A stretch of DNA of 64,000 nt from Algoriphagus sp. (GTDB lineage Bacteria > Bacteroidota > Bacteroidia > Cytophagales > Cyclobacteriaceae): the NCBI RefSeq assembly GCF_013373065.1, contig NZ_JABXIN010000011.1:124001-188000 (forward strand), written 5' to 3'. Under the pieces are notes generated by a model, which saw nothing but the letters and a program-made list of their open reading frames with translations, was not told where the DNA came from and did no database searches. The position numbers were made by a program, and so were the translations under genes. Every line of letters begins with the position of its first letter. The stretch's first letter is position 1. This document shows positions 41,670-55,558 of this stretch, piece after piece.

Positions 41670-43772
41670 TTAAAACATTTTTTGGATTTCATCAATCTTG
41701 GAAGACAAGTCTAAAATTGCTTCCGCATAACGTTCATCCCATTCTTCCAGTTTTTCTGTCCGATTTATAGCGACCTCATATTGTATACCAGGTAAAATCC
41801 AGGATGCGTAACCAGAGAAGGGATCATTACACACGTACAGTGATTTGTACCAATCCCCATAATACATCCCTTTTGGATCAATCCAACTTTTTTCCAAATT
41901 GATCAATTGCTGGTTAATTATTTTGATTTTATCATCGGATAGATTTCCGGAAGACAAAGCCTTATCAATCGATTCTTTATAGGCAGTGGAGCTTTGTTCT
42001 AATTTTACTAATGCCTGATTTACTTGGTCAAATTCTTTAAAGTCAGGAGAAATAGTTTGTACGTTTTTTACTGCCTGCTCAAAATGACCTTTTAAATCTT
42101 GGGCATACCGAGGCACATCGTAGGGAATTATCTCAGCATTAGCCATTCGAAGTGTTACAAGCCCAAATAATTGAGCGACTGCACCACCCATTTTAAAACT
42201 TGGATCTACAAATCGGCTATAGTAATTAAAATTATCATAATTGGAATGATAAGCCGTAGTACCTCCTGCGCCACCGCTTAAGCTCGGCACGCCAACATGC
42301 ATGTAAAATGCGATGTGGTCTGATCCTCCTCCTAAATTTCCAATTCCTGGTTCTTCATTGTTTCCAGCCCAAACCTCAAAAACGGTTTTTGCAGAATCTG
42401 GATACATGACTTCTTGGGATGCATCAATGATCAATTTTTTAAGGGTAGGAGCTGCTGAAGCACCAAAATTTCTTCCAGAAACTCCACCATCAAAATTCAT
42501 GTAAGCAACCGCTTTGGCGCTTAGTTCATCCCGAAGATGTTCAACCCATTCTGTAGAGCCAATCACTCCTTGTTCCTCCGCATCCCAATGTCCAATGAGG
42601 ATGGATCGTTCAGGTTGAATTCCTTCCTTTACTAATTTTCCCAATGCTTCAGCCAATGTCAAAAGCATCGCTGTACCTGAGTTTGGATCAGTCGCCCCAA
42701 AACTCCAGGCATCAAAATGAGATCCTAGAATAATCCATTCATCTGGATATTTTGATCCTTTAAATGTCCCAATGACATTATTCGCACGGATAAAGTTCAC
42801 AGGCTGATCAACCATCACACGAACTTTGAGATCCTTGCCTCCCTCAATTTTATAATCAAAAGGTAATCCTCCTTGCCACTCTTCAGGAACAGGTTGTCCT
42901 TCCATTCTTGACAAAATTTCTTCAGCTGCTCCGTAACCAATAGGGGTTACAGGTATGCTGTGAAATGCCACGTCCGATGGATCCAATCTTTCGACTTGAG
43001 TTGGACCATCTAAAGGAAGCGCAGGCTCATAAGGAGTAAGAGGATCTCCTGTCCAATCCAGGGTGAGCATAGAACCTCGCTGTATCGTTGTCTCATTATA
43101 ATATGGTCCATTCGGGTAAACTTCTCCTTTGGTATAGCCATTGTCTTTAGGATCTGTGTAGACTACCAAACCAATAGCACCATGTTGTTCAGCAAATTTT
43201 GCCTTAAAACCCCGGAAATTACCTCCATAACGGGCAATAACTACTTTCCCTTTTAGATCTATGCCCATTTCCTCCAGTTTCTGGAAGTCTTCTCTTCTTC
43301 CGTAATTGGCATAAACTACCTCTGCGGTGACATCACCACTACCAGAGTAGGCATTAAAACCTAAATGAAGACGATCGTCTGCACTGAAGGGATCTTCTTC
43401 CAAGACTTTTTCCTGCTGGGAAAGCTTCATTTGAATGGGAGAAACGATTTCCAATTCGGATTTCCCTGGGTCATTTGGCAAATAAACATCATAGGGGTAC
43501 AGTTTGACGTCCATTCCTGCATCCTCCATGATTTTTTTCATGTATTGCTGAACCAGTTCGTTTTCAGGCGTTCCTGCTATGTGTGGATTTTTGGTTAACT
43601 CTTGCAAATGAACCTTGAATCGGTCATAATCAACAGATTCAAGGAATCGGGTTTCAATAGATTTTTCTTTGTCTTGATTTTTTTGGAAAAATCCATCTTG
43701 TGCGAATACTGGCTGTAGGACGGATCCCAAACAAAAAGTAAAAAGCACGAAAGCTCTAATAATTTTCTTCAT
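41670..43772 (-). CDS. Exported M28 peptidase, glutamate carboxypeptidase II-like
   Basis: Zinc exopeptidase with the domain plan of PSMA/GCPII. It has a signal peptide, a split N-terminal region, a PA (protease-associated) domain near 130-330, the M28 catalytic domain (GSHFDAWSFGATDPNSG, WDAEEQGVIGS, NFDGGVSG, AYHSNYDNF, giving His/Asp/Glu/Asp/His ligands), and a C-terminal helical dimerisation domain. From ATG 43772 it has 700 residues. It probably removes C-terminal Glu or other residues from peptides in the periplasm. It lies downstream of the amidohydrolase operon, separated by a hairpin. Confidence 0.9.
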   Translation of the reverse strand: MKKIIRAFVLFTFCLGSVLQPVFAQDGFFQKNQDKEKSIETRFLESVDYDRFKVHLQELTKNPHIAGTPENELVQQYMKKIMEDAGMDVKLYPYDVYLPNDPGKSELEIVSPIQMKLSQQEKVLEEDPFSADDRLHLGFNAYSGSGDVTAEVVYANYGRREDFQKLEEMGIDLKGKVVIARYGGNFRGFKAKFAEQHGAIGLVVYTDPKDNGYTKGEVYPNGPYYNETTIQRGSMLTLDWTGDPLTPYEPALPLDGPTQVERLDPSDVAFHSIPVTPIGYGAAEEILSRMEGQPVPEEWQGGLPFDYKIEGGKDLKVRVMVDQPVNFIRANNVIGTFKGSKYPDEWIILGSHFDAWSFGATDPNSGTAMLLTLAEALGKLVKEGIQPERSILIGHWDAEEQGVIGSTEWVEHLRDELSAKAVAYMNFDGGVSGRNFGASAAPTLKKLIIDASQEVMYPDSAKTVFEVWAGNNEEPGIGNLGGGSDHIAFYMHVGVPSLSGGAGGTTAYHSNYDNFNYYSRFVDPSFKMGGAVAQLFGLVTLRMANAEIIPYDVPRYAQDLKGHFEQAVKNVQTISPDFKEFDQVNQALVKLEQSSTAYKESIDKALSSGNLSDDKIKIINQQLINLEKSWIDPKGMYYGDWYKSLYVCNDPFSGYASWILPGIQYEVAINRTEKLEEWDERYAEAILDLSSKIDEIQKMF

Positions 43773-43816
43773 AGGGTTACCAATAAGAGGGCTGATATTT
43801 TCAATAGTGTATAAAT

Positions 43817-43852
43817 AAAAAACCACAAGCCAATTTACATTAGCTTGTGGTT
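43817..43852 (-). terminator. Terminator after the amidohydrolase operon
   Basis: Stem aaccacaagc / gcttgtggtt with a 12-nt loop and a minus-strand T-run; 16 nt past the last amidohydrolase stop. Confidence 0.8.
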
Positions 43853-43867
43853 TAATTAACGATTAGA

Positions 43868-45169
43868 TCAATTCGTTTTTAAACCTGGGCTTCGATCCAA
43901 GAACTCTTGATACAATCGAATATGTCTGTTGCTAAGTGGAATTCGGAATCCATTGATAAATACATGCATAATTTGTGCACGTGTTTCAAATGGGTCGTCA
44001 GTAGCAACAATCAAGTTTGCAATTTTACCTTCTTCAATTGATCCTAATTGATCCTGCAAACCAAAGATTTCAGCTGGATTGATCGTAACTGCCTTCCAAG
44101 CTTCCTCTTTTCCCATGCCATATGCAGCTGCGAATGCCGCATGGAATGGAAGATTTCTTACGTTCTCAGACTCGTTTGTTCTCAAGGCTACTTTCACTCC
44201 GGCTTTTGCCATTTTTCCTGCATTTGAATAGGCCGCATCATAACGATCTGACTCTCGGGAAGGCAAATCCTGAACCGGTCCAGTGATTACAGGGATTTTG
44301 GATTTTGCTATTTCATCAGCTACTCTCCAACCTTCTTTTACTCCAGAGAAAATGAAGCGAGCATTTTTTCCTTCCGTCCATTTGATGGCATTTTGGATAT
44401 CAGAAGCTGCGTTGACCTCAATAATTAAAGCCAATTCACCTGAAACAACTTTTGCCAGCTGCGCGATCTCAGGGTAATATTCCAATTCCGCACCTTTGCT
44501 AATTAACTCATTGTAGGAAATTGCTTTTTCCCAAAGTTCGTTAGCATCCTTTAAGGCTTTTTCATTGTCCTTTTTGATATCATCATCAGAACGTCTGTCC
44601 CATCTACCTCTTCGGGCAGAACTTGGGAAATTCATGACTACACCTTTAAAACCAGCAAACATTTGATCTGGGGTATAGCCAACCAAATTGATCAATGCGG
44701 CAGTACCCGAAAACAATCCTCCCTGCGGAACCGCCAAAGTGGTTGTAACCCCTGAAACACGAGTTACAGGGATTGCCTCTGAATTCGGATTAACAGCAGT
44801 AAGAGCTTGCATATTCGGTGTGACATTTCCAATTTCTTGATAATCTACAGTCTCAGGCACAGAATTTACTTCTACCAAACCGAGTGTAGTACCACTATCA
44901 ATCATCCCAGGATAGATCACCAATCCGGAACAATCTATTTCTTCCGCACCATCAGCAGTAAGGTTAGAACCCATTTTGGCAATTTTTCCATCTTCAATTA
45001 AGATAGATGTATTGGCCATAACGCCTTTTGTGATAGTATGGACTGTTGCATTTTTCAACAGAAATTTTCCTCCTTGGGGCTTAATGAATTCCCCATCGAT
45101 TTGCGCCCACGAAAGGATAGGTAGGAGCGCAATTAGGAAGGTTAAAAAGGTTTTATTGAATCTTTTCAT
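43868..45169 (-). CDS. Exported amidohydrolase-fold protein lacking metal ligands
   Basis: Third gene of a three-gene operon, 433 residues with a signal peptide ending in SWAQ. The fold is recognisable from the beta-sandwich and barrel starts (FLLKNATVHTITKG, IYPGMIDSG) and from the C-terminal NPAEIFGLQDQLGSIEEGKIANLIV. The HxH metal motif is replaced by GTT (residues 93-95). The later His positions are lost as well (IIEVNAASD where the middle gene has IIHCHSYRAD; IFSGVKEGW where it has VFQHTNEGF). It is probably non-catalytic, perhaps a partner subunit of its neighbour. Confidence 0.83.
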   Translation of the reverse strand: MKRFNKTFLTFLIALLPILSWAQIDGEFIKPQGGKFLLKNATVHTITKGVMANTSILIEDGKIAKMGSNLTADGAEEIDCSGLVIYPGMIDSGTTLGLVEVNSVPETVDYQEIGNVTPNMQALTAVNPNSEAIPVTRVSGVTTTLAVPQGGLFSGTAALINLVGYTPDQMFAGFKGVVMNFPSSARRGRWDRRSDDDIKKDNEKALKDANELWEKAISYNELISKGAELEYYPEIAQLAKVVSGELALIIEVNAASDIQNAIKWTEGKNARFIFSGVKEGWRVADEIAKSKIPVITGPVQDLPSRESDRYDAAYSNAGKMAKAGVKVALRTNESENVRNLPFHAAFAAAYGMGKEEAWKAVTINPAEIFGLQDQLGSIEEGKIANLIVATDDPFETRAQIMHVFINGFRIPLSNRHIRLYQEFLDRSPGLKTN

Positions 45170-45187
45170 AACTTCTTTTTTTGGGGA

Positions 45188-46576
45188 TTATTGGTTCATT
45201 TGGAATAAGGCACTAGCTGTTTCAAACAAGTGCTCTGTATCCTGCATGCAACGATGATTTTCTTCACTCAAAAGAATTGGCTCTACTGTTTCAGTAGGAC
45301 TAATTCGCTGGCGTTGATCATCTGAATCCTCTTTAATATCAAAATACTTGATACCGTCTACAAAGGTCATTTGTGGAATAGCATAAGAAGAGAGCGGATG
45401 TCCTTCAAAGATGACAACATCTCCTTGCTTACCTTCTTCTAGCGAACCAACTTTGTCCTCTATACCCAATTGTTTAGCAGGGTTAATAGTAATCATCGCA
45501 AGAGCCTCATCATCTGTTAAGCCACCATATCGTTGAGTTTTGGCTGCCTCATGATATAAATGACGAATCAATTCTGCAGAGTCGGAATTAATAGAAGTGA
45601 TCGCTCCATTTTGGTGAAGAATAGCAGCATTAAATGCCGTAGAGTAGTAAACTTCAAACTTATAAGCCCACCAGTCAGCAAAAACGGAGGCTCCCATTGT
45701 GTACTCTGCGATTTCTGGAGCTACTTTGAACCCTTCATTGGTATGTTGGAATACCAGTTTTTTAATTCCAAAATCTCTTGCAACATTGATTAGCATGTAG
45801 ATTTCATCTGCTCGGTAAGAATGGCAGTGAATAATGATTTTACCATCTAGAATATCCGCTAATGTTTGCAATCGCTCATTGTATTCAGGTGCTACTGCTG
45901 TATTTCCTTTTTGAGACTTCGCTTGGTTATAATCTGCCCAAGCTTTTTTGTATTGTATAGCCTCATTGAAACCATTTCTTAAGATGGCTTCCACACCCAT
46001 TCGGGTACGAGGTTGTTGACCATTTCCTCTTCCATGAACTCGGGTTGGGTTTTCACCCAAGGCAAATTTGATAGTTCGAGGAGCATCCTGCATGATGATA
46101 TCAGTAGGGTTATTCATTCCCCATCTATGCTTCAAGGTTGCATTTTGACCACCTACTACGTTCGCAGATCCATGCATGGCATGGGAAATGGTAACTCCAC
46201 CAGCCAATGCTCGGTAAATTCCAATTTCATAAGGATTCACCACGTCTTTCATTCGAACTTCTGCAACGATAGGAGAAGTAGCTTCATTCACTACATCTAA
46301 CGCAATATGAGAGTGGGCATCAATTATTCCTGGCATCACGTATTTGCCAGTTGCATCTACAGTCATTACCCCAGATGGTGCACTTAGATTTTGACCAATT
46401 TGCTTTATAATCCCATTTTCAACGAGGACATCCGTGTTTTCTAAGGTTCCATTGGTCACCGTTAATACGGTCCCGTTTTTAATGAGGACACTTCCTTTTG
46501 GAGCTTGAGCCCAGGAAAAATTCAAACTCAAACTCAATAGCAGTGCTATAAATATATATTTCGTATTCATCTTCAT
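45188..46576 (-). CDS. Exported metal-dependent amidohydrolase (imidazolonepropionase-like)
   Basis: Middle gene of the operon, 462 residues from ATG 46576, with signal peptide (LSLNFSWAQ). It keeps the amidohydrolase metal site: HxH in IDAHSHIA (His88, His90), His in IIHCHSYRADE, His in VFQHTNEGF and Asp in INSDSAELIRH. The C-terminal NPAKQLGIEDKVGSLEEGKQGDVVIF completes the composite sandwich. Likely substrates are periplasmic dipeptides or cyclic amides; the family includes prolidases. It starts 13 nt after the upstream gene and ends 18 nt before the next. Confidence 0.9.
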   Translation of the reverse strand: MKMNTKYIFIALLLSLSLNFSWAQAPKGSVLIKNGTVLTVTNGTLENTDVLVENGIIKQIGQNLSAPSGVMTVDATGKYVMPGIIDAHSHIALDVVNEATSPIVAEVRMKDVVNPYEIGIYRALAGGVTISHAMHGSANVVGGQNATLKHRWGMNNPTDIIMQDAPRTIKFALGENPTRVHGRGNGQQPRTRMGVEAILRNGFNEAIQYKKAWADYNQAKSQKGNTAVAPEYNERLQTLADILDGKIIIHCHSYRADEIYMLINVARDFGIKKLVFQHTNEGFKVAPEIAEYTMGASVFADWWAYKFEVYYSTAFNAAILHQNGAITSINSDSAELIRHLYHEAAKTQRYGGLTDDEALAMITINPAKQLGIEDKVGSLEEGKQGDVVIFEGHPLSSYAIPQMTFVDGIKYFDIKEDSDDQRQRISPTETVEPILLSEENHRCMQDTEHLFETASALFQMNQ

Positions 46577-46589
46577 ACTTTTTCGAATT

Positions 46590-48266
46590 TTAGTTTGGAT
46601 TTCGGGTAGCTGAAATTGGGAAGGATCCAAACTGAGCAATATTCATACTCCCATCCATGGTATTCCCTGATACATCCCCGGAAACATCTACAGAAATTGA
46701 CATTCCGCCAGCATTTACTTCAAATGCAAAACTTAAAGATGAACCGGAAACGCTGATCTCTGATAGGGAAGAAGTTGCCTTCCCGGATCCAGAGGGATCA
46801 TCATAAGTGATGGTGCCCTCGTATCCATTTCCATTCTTTTGAATGCTAATGGTACCACCTGAGCTTCCTGCTGGAGTTTCAGAAGTGTAGTCCCAGTTAC
46901 CTGTAACTTCTGCTGAAGCAGTTTCCCCATTACCATTCTTTTTCTTGGCTTTAACTTCGTAATCGAAGATTTTACCGTCAACTACCACATGCTTGATTTG
47001 GCTTTCTGAATCGAAAATTGGTCCGGTAGACAGTACTAAGTTGGCTAATTTTCCATTCTCGATGGTTCCAGCCATTCTTCCAATACCCAAAGCATTTGCG
47101 GCATTTGTTGTCAAGGCAGCTAAAGCATCTTTTTCACTAAGACCAGCTTCAATCATTGTTTGTAAGGCTTTCATGCTATCATTAGCCTTTGCTCCAATGG
47201 TGGAGAAAGAGAAAGGAACACCAGCTGCTGCAAGTTTTCCAGCTTGTGCGATAGTTTTGTCATAAGCCTCTTTTACACGCTGATACTGTGCTTTTACGGA
47301 TTCACTGACATCTTCCTTTTGATTTTTAATTGCCTTGTCATCTGGGATTTGCAATTTGAGGATCACTCCAGCTCCACTTTCCTTCAACAAATCAATGATT
47401 GATTCATATTCTTCGAGGCCATAAAGGACCAATTGGAATCCTAATTCTTTTTGTAGGCTGATGGCTCGACGAGCTTCCAAATCATCTTCAACTTCGAAAA
47501 ATACCGGAATGGCACTATCAACTACTTCACTCATGGCCATAAACGTAGGATTGATCTCCGGACGAGTGATACCATTAGCTGATGCAAATAAGGCCATTCT
47601 GTCTTTAGTTAATTTCGTATTTTGATATACATCACGAAATTTCGCCATTACGCCGACAGTAGTGCCTGGGTACATTCCTCTTGCACCGTTCAAGTTTGCC
47701 GATAGGGATGTGTTTTCCTTTAAAACATTGGTAGACTCCTTTTCTCCAAAAAGCACCAAAGCACCTTTCCCAGCAATCATACCTCCATCTGGAAGAATAT
47801 GTGCTAAAGTAAAACCTGCTTTTCGTAGATCATTTACTTGAGAAGACTCAATGTCAAATTGGTCTACCGCAGATCTCCATGGCGTAATTCCTGCTATTTC
47901 ATCGGGGGGGCTGGAATAAACAAAATCCTTAGGTCTTTCTGGATCTTCTGGTTTGGTAATACCGCCTCTAGAAGCAGCATCAATAAACCCTGCGTAGGCA
48001 TGCAAAGAATCACCTTCAATAATTTGTGCCTCGGCAGGTATACTTAGGTTTTCACCTACTCCTAATATTACTCCGTTTTTAATCAGAATACTTGCCTTTT
48101 TACCTTCCATGCCCGGCGATGTATGGACAGTAGCATTGGTAATGGCGTAGGTATTTGTAATGGATTTTTTTCCGGTAGGATCACTCTGTGCATGAACAGT
48201 AATCCCACTAGACAAACCCATCAAAAACAGCCCGAAAAGGCTTGCCTTCCAAAGTGTTTTTCTCAT
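46590..48266 (-). CDS. Exported amidohydrolase-fold protein lacking metal ligands, with C-terminal beta domain
   Basis: First gene of the operon, 558 residues with a signal peptide ending in VHAQ. The amidohydrolase fold is visible (YAITNATVHTSPG, AYAGFIDAA and NAANALGIGRMAGTIENGKLANLVL). The HxH motif is AxR here (Ala98, Arg100), and the barrel His and Asp positions are replaced. About 100 C-terminal residues (from roughly 455) form a Gly/Ser-rich beta domain (GTISIQKNGNGYEGTITY) resembling domains often appended to such proteins. It is predicted to be non-catalytic and may recruit or bind substrate for the middle protein. Confidence 0.8.
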   Translation of the reverse strand: MRKTLWKASLFGLFLMGLSSGITVHAQSDPTGKKSITNTYAITNATVHTSPGMEGKKASILIKNGVILGVGENLSIPAEAQIIEGDSLHAYAGFIDAASRGGITKPEDPERPKDFVYSSPPDEIAGITPWRSAVDQFDIESSQVNDLRKAGFTLAHILPDGGMIAGKGALVLFGEKESTNVLKENTSLSANLNGARGMYPGTTVGVMAKFRDVYQNTKLTKDRMALFASANGITRPEINPTFMAMSEVVDSAIPVFFEVEDDLEARRAISLQKELGFQLVLYGLEEYESIIDLLKESGAGVILKLQIPDDKAIKNQKEDVSESVKAQYQRVKEAYDKTIAQAGKLAAAGVPFSFSTIGAKANDSMKALQTMIEAGLSEKDALAALTTNAANALGIGRMAGTIENGKLANLVLSTGPIFDSESQIKHVVVDGKIFDYEVKAKKKNGNGETASAEVTGNWDYTSETPAGSSGGTISIQKNGNGYEGTITYDDPSGSGKATSSLSEISVSGSSLSFAFEVNAGGMSISVDVSGDVSGNTMDGSMNIAQFGSFPISATRNPN

Positions 48267-52195: not shown

Positions 52196-53653
52196 TTATT
52201 GCAAATTTGAATTGATAGGAGGAGGGCCGTCAGGAATAAAACCCTTATAGACATAATCCCCTTTTTTCTCTTTAAACTCTGCTTTTACTGCCTCAATCAA
52301 TTCTGGGTTTTGAAATAAATCCACCATAGTCATGGACAAAGCTTTTGCAGCGTAGGCCATTCCTTTATGTCCAATTGACATACCACTTGAGGCAACGACA
52401 GCCCAAGAATGCCAAGGAGTACCATTTGGAGCGGTAGTAGCAGAAAGTCTGATCGTTGGCACCACCCAACTGACATCTCCTACATCAGTACTTCCTCCCA
52501 TGCTATGCTCTGCAGTTTCTTCCATAGGTTCGATCTTCGAAACCAATCCAATTTGAGGTTTATCGGTGGCTTCTTGGATTTTCTTTGCAAATTCCTGTTC
52601 CTCCTCTGTATAGATGATGGGACCTAAGGATTCTAAATTTTTCTGTAAGGCAGCAGACCCGGTACGATTTACCAAAATTTCATGCACTCCTGAGATGAGG
52701 CTTACCTTATATTCCACATTAGCCATAATAGCCGCACCTTCAGCCATCTCTTCTACACGTTTCCAAACCGGGATTAATCCTTCCCGACTGCTATCGCGGA
52801 CACGGACCCATATTCTGGAATAGTCTGGCACCACATTGACTACTTTTCCTGCGTCTTGAATATGGTAATGGATCCGAACAGTGGGTTTGATATGTTCCCG
52901 GTAATAATTAATTCCTGTGGTGTATAGCTCCAAAGCATCACCCGAACTTCGACCATTCCAAGGGTCTGAGGAGGCATGGGCTGCTTGTCCAAAAAATTCA
53001 ACTTGAAAATCTACCAGAGCTAATCCTTTTTGAACCGCTGTTTTGGTTTCTGCAGCCGGATGCCAATCCATCACTACATCTACATCATCAAATAATCCTG
53101 CCCGGACCATCCATAGTTTTCCAAAAAACTTTTCTTCAGCTGGCGTTCCATAAAATCGAACTGTTCCCTTGAGTTCTCCTTTTTCTATCAGGTCTTTGAT
53201 AGCTGCGGCTGCACCTAAAGAGGCTGTCCCAAATAAATTATGCCCACAGCCATGACCAGGAGCACCTTCATTTAGGGGGCTTTTGTAAGGAACTTTATTT
53301 TGAGAAAGTCCCGGTAAAGCATCAAACTCACCCAAAACTCCAATGATAGGCTTTCCTGATCCATATTCTGCTACAAAGGCAGTTGGAATTTCAGCCACAC
53401 CTCGTGTCACTTTAAATCCTAATGATTCTGCATAATCAGAAAGCGCCGCCGCGGACTGGGTTTCTTGAAATGCTATTTCTTCAAAGGACCATATACGGTC
53501 AGAGACATCAGTTAATTCCTCAAATCGGTTATCTACTGAAGCAATCACAGCTTCTTTTTGAGGATTTGGTTTTTGTTTTTTCTGTGCTGAAACCGATAGG
53601 GAAGTTCCCGAAAGGATGATCAGCAAACCAACTCGATAAGTAATTTTATTCAT
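52196..53653 (-). CDS. Exported M20 family amidohydrolase (AbgB-like)
   Basis: Metallo-aminoacylase/carboxypeptidase of 485 residues with a signal peptide (LLIILSGTSLSVSAQ). GVLGEFDALPGLS and GHGCGHNLFG are the metal-site landmarks of the AbgA/AbgB and IAA-amino acid hydrolase branch. VVMDWHPAAET and HSMGGSTDVGDVSW complete it. The AbgB relatives cleave p-aminobenzoyl-glutamate. Export plus the neighbouring gamma-glutamyltransferase suggest cleavage of glutamyl amides in the periplasm. It starts 30 nt after the GGT gene. Confidence 0.9.
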   Translation of the reverse strand: MNKITYRVGLLIILSGTSLSVSAQKKQKPNPQKEAVIASVDNRFEELTDVSDRIWSFEEIAFQETQSAAALSDYAESLGFKVTRGVAEIPTAFVAEYGSGKPIIGVLGEFDALPGLSQNKVPYKSPLNEGAPGHGCGHNLFGTASLGAAAAIKDLIEKGELKGTVRFYGTPAEEKFFGKLWMVRAGLFDDVDVVMDWHPAAETKTAVQKGLALVDFQVEFFGQAAHASSDPWNGRSSGDALELYTTGINYYREHIKPTVRIHYHIQDAGKVVNVVPDYSRIWVRVRDSSREGLIPVWKRVEEMAEGAAIMANVEYKVSLISGVHEILVNRTGSAALQKNLESLGPIIYTEEEQEFAKKIQEATDKPQIGLVSKIEPMEETAEHSMGGSTDVGDVSWVVPTIRLSATTAPNGTPWHSWAVVASSGMSIGHKGMAYAAKALSMTMVDLFQNPELIEAVKAEFKEKKGDYVYKGFIPDGPPPINSNLQ

Positions 53654-53683
53654 AGTAAGGTGATGGTTTAATTTATGTTTGGA

Positions 53684-55558
53684 TTACCAGCCAATGCCAT
53701 AATCTTCTCCGTAATTAGAACTTCCTCCCCAGAAACTTCCATGCTTCCAGTCAAACCAAATGGCATTGATAGGACCGGATGTTCGGGTCCAAAATTCCAT
53801 GTTGTATCCTTTTTTCATTAATTCGGCACGAATCCAATTGGGCGTATCCTCGCGTAGAATCATATGTCCCGGCTTAATTTCATGAGCTCCAAAAGAGCTT
53901 TGCATTTGGAGGGAATTCATATTTGCTGCTTCAACAGCTTCCTGCACATTCATTCCAAACTCTACCACATTCAAGAAAAATTGAAGAAGATTTTGATCCT
54001 GCGAATCACCGCCTTGTACTGCAAAAGACAAGAAAGGTTTTCCATCTTTTAAAGCCATGCTGGGAGTAAGTGTTACTCGCGGTCTTTTTCCAGGTTCGGG
54101 TAGATTGTAAGGATTTAACTTTTCATCTAATACAAAACTTTGCATTCGTTGACTTAATCCAACTCCGGTTTTTCCTGCGATGACAGCTGGAACCCATCCT
54201 CCGCTTGGAGTAACAGAAACGACCCAACCATCTTTATCAGCCGCCTGAATGGAGGTTGTTCCACTGAAAAACTCATCAAAAAAAGGATCTTGGGGACCTT
54301 GGAGCTCATCTTCGTGAATGTAAGAGGCAAGGGGATTTTCTTGCTTTGACAAAAGGTTTTGGAAAGGATTCGTCCCTCCTTGGAAGGGATAGGGATCACC
54401 TGCTCCCATGGTTGGATCATTTTTATCTTTAATCAACTTTGCACGTTCCTTGGCATATTCTTTTGAAAGTAATCCTTGGATGGGGCTTTTGGGTTCAAAA
54501 GCTGGATCTGAATAATAGAAATCTCTGTCTGCAAATGCTAAATTCATTGCCTGATAAACAGTGTGAAGGTATTCCGAACTGTTGTAACCCATTTTTTGCA
54601 GGTCAAAATTCTCCAGGATATTTAAGGATTGAAGCAAAGCAGGCCCTTGCGTCCACTCTTGTAATTTGTAAACATCAATTCCCCTATAATTGACCATCAA
54701 AGGTTCTTCAATTTTTACCCTCCATTTGGCCAAGTCTTCCATGGTGAACAACCCACCCTGCTCACGAGTCCCTCTCACAATTTCCTCCGCAATATCTCCT
54801 TTATAAAACCGATCATAAGCTGCATAAATGGCCTCTTTTCTAGTTTTTCCATTACGTAGAGCCTCCTTCTCGGTTTGTACCAATTTCTGCAACGTTTGAA
54901 ATAAATCTTCTTGTACAAAAATTTCTCCCGGTTCTGGAGCTTCACGTTCCTCGCCTAAATGGGTAAGAAAAACTTCTTTGGAATAAGGCCACTCTTTGAT
55001 TCGGGCTTTGCCATTCTCAATTGAATTAGCGGTTTGGGCTTCAATAGGATAACCTTTGGCCAATTGCATTGCCGGTGCAAGTACTTCTTCCAAACTCATT
55101 GTTCCATATTCTGCAAGCATAGTCAGAAGGCCTCCAGGCGTACCTGGAGTAGTAGCTGCCAACGGTCCAAATGCTGGAGGGTAATCCATCCCTTGAGATT
55201 TGTAGAATTCAACTGTAGCACCCGTAGGAGCAATGCCCATCGCATTTATAGCAATCACTTTCTTCAGTTCTGGATGATAAATCAAAGCTTGGGTTTCTCC
55301 TCCCCAAGACAAAACATCCCACATTGTAGCCGTCGCCGCAAGCATGGCACAAGCTGCATCAACCGCGTTCCCACCTTTTTGAAAAATGGACGCTCCTGCA
55401 GTTGCTGCCAATGGTTTTCCGGTAATAGCCATCCAGTTTTTACCATGGAGGATTGGTTTTTGAGTAGAATTTTGACCAGGTGCAAGGCCTGGAAGGCTTT
55501 GACCAATAGTCAATAATGGAGTTAAGAAGAGGAGAATTAGAAGTTTTAAAGATTTCAT
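53684..55558 (-). CDS. ggt: Gamma-glutamyltransferase
   Basis: Periplasmic Ntn-hydrolase that self-cleaves and transfers or hydrolyses the gamma-glutamyl group of glutathione and similar compounds. It has a signal peptide ending near TIGQ, the N-terminal GGNAVDAACAMLAAT landmark, and the autocleavage site before Thr434 in SGTTSIQAADKDG, which becomes the new N-terminal nucleophile. VTPSGGW and KPFLSFAVQGGDSQDQ follow. The 624 residues fit the family. It is the middle gene of an operon: 12 nt after the CarboxypepD_reg gene and 30 nt before the M20 gene. Confidence 0.93.
   Translation of the reverse strand: MKSLKLLILLFLTPLLTIGQSLPGLAPGQNSTQKPILHGKNWMAITGKPLAATAGASIFQKGGNAVDAACAMLAATATMWDVLSWGGETQALIYHPELKKVIAINAMGIAPTGATVEFYKSQGMDYPPAFGPLAATTPGTPGGLLTMLAEYGTMSLEEVLAPAMQLAKGYPIEAQTANSIENGKARIKEWPYSKEVFLTHLGEEREAPEPGEIFVQEDLFQTLQKLVQTEKEALRNGKTRKEAIYAAYDRFYKGDIAEEIVRGTREQGGLFTMEDLAKWRVKIEEPLMVNYRGIDVYKLQEWTQGPALLQSLNILENFDLQKMGYNSSEYLHTVYQAMNLAFADRDFYYSDPAFEPKSPIQGLLSKEYAKERAKLIKDKNDPTMGAGDPYPFQGGTNPFQNLLSKQENPLASYIHEDELQGPQDPFFDEFFSGTTSIQAADKDGWVVSVTPSGGWVPAVIAGKTGVGLSQRMQSFVLDEKLNPYNLPEPGKRPRVTLTPSMALKDGKPFLSFAVQGGDSQDQNLLQFFLNVVEFGMNVQEAVEAANMNSLQMQSSFGAHEIKPGHMILREDTPNWIRAELMKKGYNMEFWTRTSGPINAIWFDWKHGSFWGGSSNYGEDYGIGW

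Follow-up and report, generated by a model that had tools for sequence, protein, structure and literature searches.

Three neighbouring genes of an Algoriphagus genome encode exported paralogues of the amidohydrolase fold, here called A, B and C. We consider it probable that the three proteins are subunits of one exported hetero-oligomeric metal hydrolase belonging to the group of PDB entry 3ooq, with B as the only live enzyme and A and C as pseudo-subunits. The genes lie in a window of 64,000 nt, meaning the whole stretch of DNA that was analysed. A preliminary description had proposed a periplasmic hetero-complex in which two dead paralogues aid one live enzyme, and a comparison of related loci appears to support that proposal in part. 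Natural A-B fusions, the co-occurrence of the genes and a reciprocal loss of a loop all speak for a joint machine, although neighbouring, co-expressed, exported paralogues could also act separately.

In the mechanism that we propose, B would be the sole metal binder and the sole cutter, acting on a peptide-like or other amide substrate. A and C would be co-evolved descendants of live copies in which the metal site was lost, and they would occupy the positions that identical copies hold in a homo-oligomer. In many relatives, A and B do form a single chain.

Three exported paralogues of the 3ooq group

The genes follow one another on the minus strand in the order A, B, C, with intergenic gaps of 13 and 18 nt and one terminator-like hairpin after C (Table 1), which bears out the head-to-tail trio of exported paralogues described earlier. 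The scan of the sequence for terminators returned 7 such sites against 4.4 expected. Each of the three proteins has a signal-peptide-like N-terminus, as judged by eye. B is counted here from its ATG, giving 462 codons, and the listed open reading frame begins further upstream at a TTG. Behind the trio, the longest reading frame of the M28 peptidase (41670-43826) begins at a GTG within the hairpin of C; the ATG at 43772, with its signal-peptide-like stretch, was chosen by eye as the likelier start.

Table 1. Features of the trio and its immediate surroundings, in window coordinates
Feature	Position	Strand	Basis
Gene A (558 aa), dead exported protein of the amidohydrolase fold, joined to the N-terminus of B in many relatives	46590..48266	-	ORF list, Pfam, 3ooq match, ligand count
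Gene B, exported amidohydrolase of live type with the full set of six ligands	45188..46576	-	ORF, Pfam, 3ooq match, ligand count
Gene C (433 aa), dead exported protein of the amidohydrolase fold	43868..45169	-	ORF, Pfam, 3ooq match, ligand count
HxH (H88, H90) of B	46307..46315	-	Present in 161/161 B sequences
Shortened loop directly after the HxH of B	46286..46306	-	Length counts across B versus single-copy relatives
Full-length loop in C, residues 97-112, including D109 and E112	44834..44881	-	Column and length counts in C
C-terminal beta domain of A (residues 456-556)	46599..46901	-	Strands in predicted models
Terminator-like hairpin behind C	43820..43853	-	15 pairs, T-rich tail
M28 peptidase with PA and TFR-dimer domains, outside the trio	41670..43772	-	Pfam; own signal-peptide-like start

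All three proteins pass the Pfam Amidohydro_1 cut-off, and the best sequence match in the PDB is in each case 3ooq from Thermotoga maritima MSB8 (E = 1.4e-61 for B, 1.2e-38 for C and 5.1e-18 for A). Sequence thus places A, B and C in the 3ooq group, and predicted structure agrees in the two cases modelled, A itself and the B half of a fused relative. Imidazolonepropionase-like structures had been suggested earlier as a reference, but 3ooq is the nearest solved relative; NCBIfam hutI scores B and C at 54.9 bits each and A at 30.2 bits, far below the cut-off of 298.15, and an identity as imidazolonepropionase (HutI) was rejected. As far as the PDB entry shows, 3ooq is a single gene, and its title gives no function. 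The 3ooq protein carries the metal ligands and, as judged by eye, the long loop with an Asp, whereas A and C of the window lack the ligands and B lacks the loop.

AlphaFold2 was used to model a fused A-B relative (1036 residues, 57 aligned sequences). L137 and L163 were excluded from the alignment of fused proteins. The model reached a pLDDT of 87.7 and a pTM of 0.86, the latter indicating confidence in the relative placement of the two barrels in the chain. Its B half aligns with 3ooq at a Z score of 48.1 and an R.M.S.D. of 2.1 over 374 residues. The next-best structural neighbours of this half are amidohydrolases of the prolidase and dipeptidase type (3feq/3n2c, 2qs8 and isoaspartyl dipeptidase) at Z scores of ~24-26, about half that of 3ooq, and at ~20% identity, so that their activity cannot be transferred to B. 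The model of the window A protein (pLDDT 85.9, pTM 0.70) aligns with 3ooq at a Z score of 43.9 and an R.M.S.D. of 2.5 over 360 residues, with the next entry at 24.2; these searches covered mainly residues 36-439. The predicted barrel of A is therefore whole despite the absent metal ligands. The models also show an extra domain of beta-strands at the C-terminus of A, which in the fused protein sits between the A and B barrels. This domain (residues 456-556) gave no Pfam match at E 0.01, and its absence from some A proteins, such as those of loci L152, L154 and L160, counts against our preferred explanation.

Metal ligands, gene order and descent

Catalytic amidohydrolases require an HxH-Lys-His-His-Asp set of ligands, which B has (H88, H90, K149, H252, H278 and D332) and A and C do not. 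The same six positions are A98, R100, L172, E258, G283 and I357 in A, and G93, T95, N161, E251, G276 and N332 in C. This alignment confirms the earlier reading that AxR in A and GTT in C replace the HxH. The replacement of the later ligands in A and C, together with the whole site in B, recurs in 161 B, 159 A and 141 C sequences, and given this repetition the pattern of one live and two dead proteins is not one that we would ascribe to chance. All six ligands are present in 158 of the B sequences and five in the other 3, where the exceptions are an Arg for the Lys in 2 and an Asp position within a run of N in 1. A has none of the ligands in 135 sequences, one in 20 and two in 4, and never more than two. 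C has none in 75, one in 63, two in 2 and three in 1, and the first His is found in no C at all. That the ligand Asp (D332 in B) is retained in 41 of 141 C sequences, and that one C still has three ligands, are points against our preferred explanation.

A displaced set of ligands was also sought in the alignment columns. Among the 159 A sequences, His and Cys stay below 50% in every column, and Asp/Glu attains 80% in a single one (E274). Among the 141 C sequences, His columns 402 and 416 and Cys column 80 are at 50% or above, but none reaches 93%. The metal ligands thus appear to have been lost, as first described, and not moved elsewhere in the barrel. In addition, four single-copy relatives (from Bacillota and Actinomycetota, all with a whole metal site) share 15 invariant columns that are kept in B and in its more distant counterpart B2, described below, and lost in A and C. 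Residue 135 of B, which precedes an invariant GSAN, is a His in 161/161 B sequences and a Pro in the four single-copy relatives and B2; to judge by the alignment, this His is specific to the lineage and near the active site.

We compared the locus with 160 others, counting open reading frames only at a profile score of at least 100. These comprise the best 80 of 323 B relatives in named genomes (L041-L120), nearly all from Cyclobacteriaceae, and 80 further Bacteroidota stretches (L121-L200) that were picked by hand from match lists, at least half of them for being fused. Loci L012-L040 were left out because they repeat, as second and shorter copies, genomes or neighbours that had already been counted, or because they were unneeded. 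The order A, B, C was found in 94 loci, an A-B fusion followed by C in 44, and an A-B fusion with no C in the stretch in 15; the remaining loci show A and B (5) or B and C (2), with a contig end beside the pair in all seven. A and B are thus one protein of ~1000 residues in 59/160 loci, a count that is not a frequency because many loci were picked as fused, and A is separate from B in 99/160. Both the gene order and the ligand loss therefore extend well beyond this strain, a point on which the preliminary description had let its proposal depend.

The genes of the trio are closely spaced, with medians of 4 nt from A to B (98/99 within 100 nt), 21 nt from B to C (92/96) and -1 nt from fused AB to C (41/44), all with estimated starts, and none of the measured pairs lies on opposite strands. 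In 14 of the 15 genomes with a fused locus lacking an adjacent C, a C is found elsewhere (E = 2.1e-52 or better); in the fifteenth, a run of N covers the gene. These 14 genomes, in which C is unlinked from AB, are a further counterpoint to our preferred explanation. A broken B half in genome G007 was considered as a joint loss of B and C and rejected, as the stretch is a run of N. We also noted a copy of the set on a Hymenobacter volaticus plasmid (L205, 2299-6499) with its frames broken into several shorter annotated genes, and a contig assigned to a Sulfuricurvum metagenome bin (L079) that carries an Algoriphagus-type trio, probably through a binning error.

Of 296 Bacteroidota genomes, 170 contain B at an E-value threshold of 1e-40 and 162 contain C at 1e-30, all of the latter among the 170. 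The eight B genomes without C at this threshold have C beside AB (3), a weaker match to the C query (4) or a run of N (1). The A query matched in 167 genomes (E 1e-10), none of them without B, and in all 156 type I genomes, but a match at this level may also be B or C, so that A was checked directly only in the 160 loci.

A more distant B occurs in 14/296 genomes, and in 13 of these a live gene, B2, is followed on one stretch by a dead gene, C2, with no A. B2 has all six ligands in 13/13, and C2 has one or two of six, retaining the Lys in 13/13 and the first His in 8/13; C2 looks less eroded than C. On two Sphingomonadales plasmids, likewise, a dead C comes after a live B, with no A there.

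Trees were built on 93, 68 and 36 hand-picked rows. Each of A, B, C, B2 and C2 is recovered as a single clade. One branch divides all live proteins, single-copy enzymes included, from all dead ones, with support of 100/99 in the 68-row tree and 97/96 in the 36-row tree. In the latter, the order on the dead side is A, C, Sphingomonadales C and C2, and on the live side B, Sphingomonadales B, B2 and the single-copy proteins, so the live and dead members of the pairs mirror each other. The simplest reading, with the root assumed, would be a single ancient live-dead duplication. It is also likely that the metal site was lost once, in one dead ancestor, although the trees disagree on the single-copy enzymes: these fall inside B2, which then branches earlier, in the 68-row tree and outside B2 and B in the 36-row tree, where the branch setting them apart has support of only 89/87.

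The loop after HxH and a proposed role of the dead paralogues

We screened the 97 columns invariant among the four single-copy enzymes for those missing in B and kept in A or C. Six qualified, and among these an Asp in the loop after the HxH is the sole charged position. Measured from the second His up to the invariant Gly that comes next (G127 in B), this loop has 36-37 residues in 161/161 B, 44-45 in 141/141 C and 44-62 in A. The single-copy enzymes have 45 residues (4/4), B2 has 36 (13/13) and C2 has 45 (13/13). The Asp is present in 141/141 C (D109), 12/13 C2 and 4/4 single-copy enzymes, and in B and B2 its position falls in the gap. The Sphingomonadales B proteins have long loops of 46 and 48 residues, even though each is paired with a dead C. 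A joint clade of B and B2 was rejected with p-AU 0.004, in a test whose grouping was defined with a tree already in view. Since the Sphingomonadales B with its long loop lies between the two, two separate losses of the loop are probable, both in live proteins that have a dead partner.

The reciprocal loss, of the metal site in one copy and of the loop in the other, suggests a hetero-oligomer and perhaps an active site shared between copies, though it comprises few evolutionary events seen against four single-copy sequences. Because C keeps a loop, located after strand 1, that the single-copy enzymes have and B has lost, C would most likely provide the full-length loop at a B-C interface, either as structural support or as part of the substrate pocket of B. 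We tentatively put forward a more specific model, which we regard as a possibility and not as the expected outcome. Here the active site would be divided, with the metals on B, the loop with its otherwise invariant Asp lent in trans by C, and A as a second dead unit that is often part of the B chain. An ancient live-dead pair would have been inherited in at least three lineages (B/C, B2/C2 and Sphingomonadales), the live half dropping its loop twice.

The long loops of the Sphingomonadales B beside a dead C mean that the loop is not always divided, which argues against a strict rule and also favours a different explanation. B may have lost its loop solely in adapting to another substrate while C keeps the ancestral loop for its own fold, with nothing shared between them. 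We find this somewhat doubtful, since B and B2 both lack the loop and each has a dead partner of full loop length, the partner retains the Asp in every C and all but one C2, and rejection of the B+B2 clade points to separate events.

A further reading, which we regard as unlikely, has A and C as independent proteins that are expressed together with B without attaching to it and that bind or carry substrate or product, with no metal chemistry of their own. Such a role would suit C, which conserves residues of its own outside the old metal site (E100 in 140/141, D109 in 141/141 and R137 in 140/141), and the change of the strand-6 His to Gly in 139/141 C and 133/159 A would leave a pocket. However, 59 of the 160 loci encode A and B as one covalent chain, the fused model is confidently packed (pTM 0.86), and a reciprocal loss of loop and metal site between B and C would not be expected of independent proteins.

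Even less credence can be given to A and C as enzymes with a new chemistry in the same barrel, whether metal-free or with a displaced metal. The conserved acidic residues E100, D109 and E112 (the last in 131/141) of C might serve such a chemistry, but D109, being inherited from live relatives (4/4), does not count as a newly acquired catalytic residue, His and Cys both stay below 50% in all columns of A, and the 15 family active-site columns were lost together in A and C. Lastly, functionless decay of A and C, for which one could cite that A evolves fastest of the three, is hardly credible and already contradicted by their retention (the A query matches in 156/156 type I genomes), by 26 columns of A that are invariant across 50 sequences, and by the purifying selection that comparison with Algoriphagus kandeliae points to on all three genes (dN/dS ~0.03 for A, ~0.01 for B and ~0.03 for C, with dS near saturation here and saturated in most other pairs).

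Related systems and genomic neighbours

Pseudoenzymes are usually explained case by case. Here a single family, present in 170 of the 296 Bacteroidota genomes, pairs live proteins with dead copies of themselves and provides natural fused and split versions. The reciprocal loss makes for a testable claim, namely that a homo-oligomer became an obligate hetero-oligomer with a divided active site. There is also a warning for annotation, as many Bacteroidota genes labelled "amidohydrolase family protein" cannot by themselves be metal enzymes.

Two known systems are similar in part. The aspartate transcarbamoylase of Pseudomonas has a dead amidohydrolase-fold subunit, a pseudo-dihydroorotase, that is required for the activity of its partner (PMC7053772). 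That dead subunit supports an enzyme of another family, whereas the live and dead proteins of the window are paralogues of one family, all with export signals. M16 peptidases are split heterodimers or fused two-half enzymes with the active site in one half and a need for both halves (PMC12731061), so the live and dead halves are encoded side by side in certain members and joined in a single chain in others. The same coexistence of natural live-dead fusions and split forms is seen here, with 59 fused and 99 split A-bearing loci among the 160. The M16 fold and family are unrelated, however, and the set described here has a third, separate dead paralogue and would, if it functions as a whole, do so as A-B-C. 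Our search of open-access literature found no description of this trio. A dead barrel needed by its partner and split or fused live-dead halves are thus known; the new elements are the trio itself, how widely it occurs and the reciprocal loss of the loop.

The surroundings of the trio were also inspected. A homologue of the M28 peptidase lies behind C in 51 of the 68 Cyclobacteriaceae-type loci with room for one, as well as in L141, and it is possible that this peptidase is part of the functional context of the trio. On one plasmid, a POT peptide transporter precedes B. Among the same-strand neighbours of 42 picked reading frames, no family recurred beyond 3/42 (DUF3810), and the neighbours of a further 15 were equally mixed. 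Taken together, the neighbours give a hint of peptides in some lineages, and peptide substrates for the trio would be a guess. In one genus, a gamma-glutamyltranspeptidase gene lies directly behind C (L149, 7411-9309; L150, 1676-3571; L158, 7288-9195). In the window itself, genes for a gamma-glutamyltranspeptidase and an M20 peptidase are found at 52196-55558, ~5 kb upstream of A.
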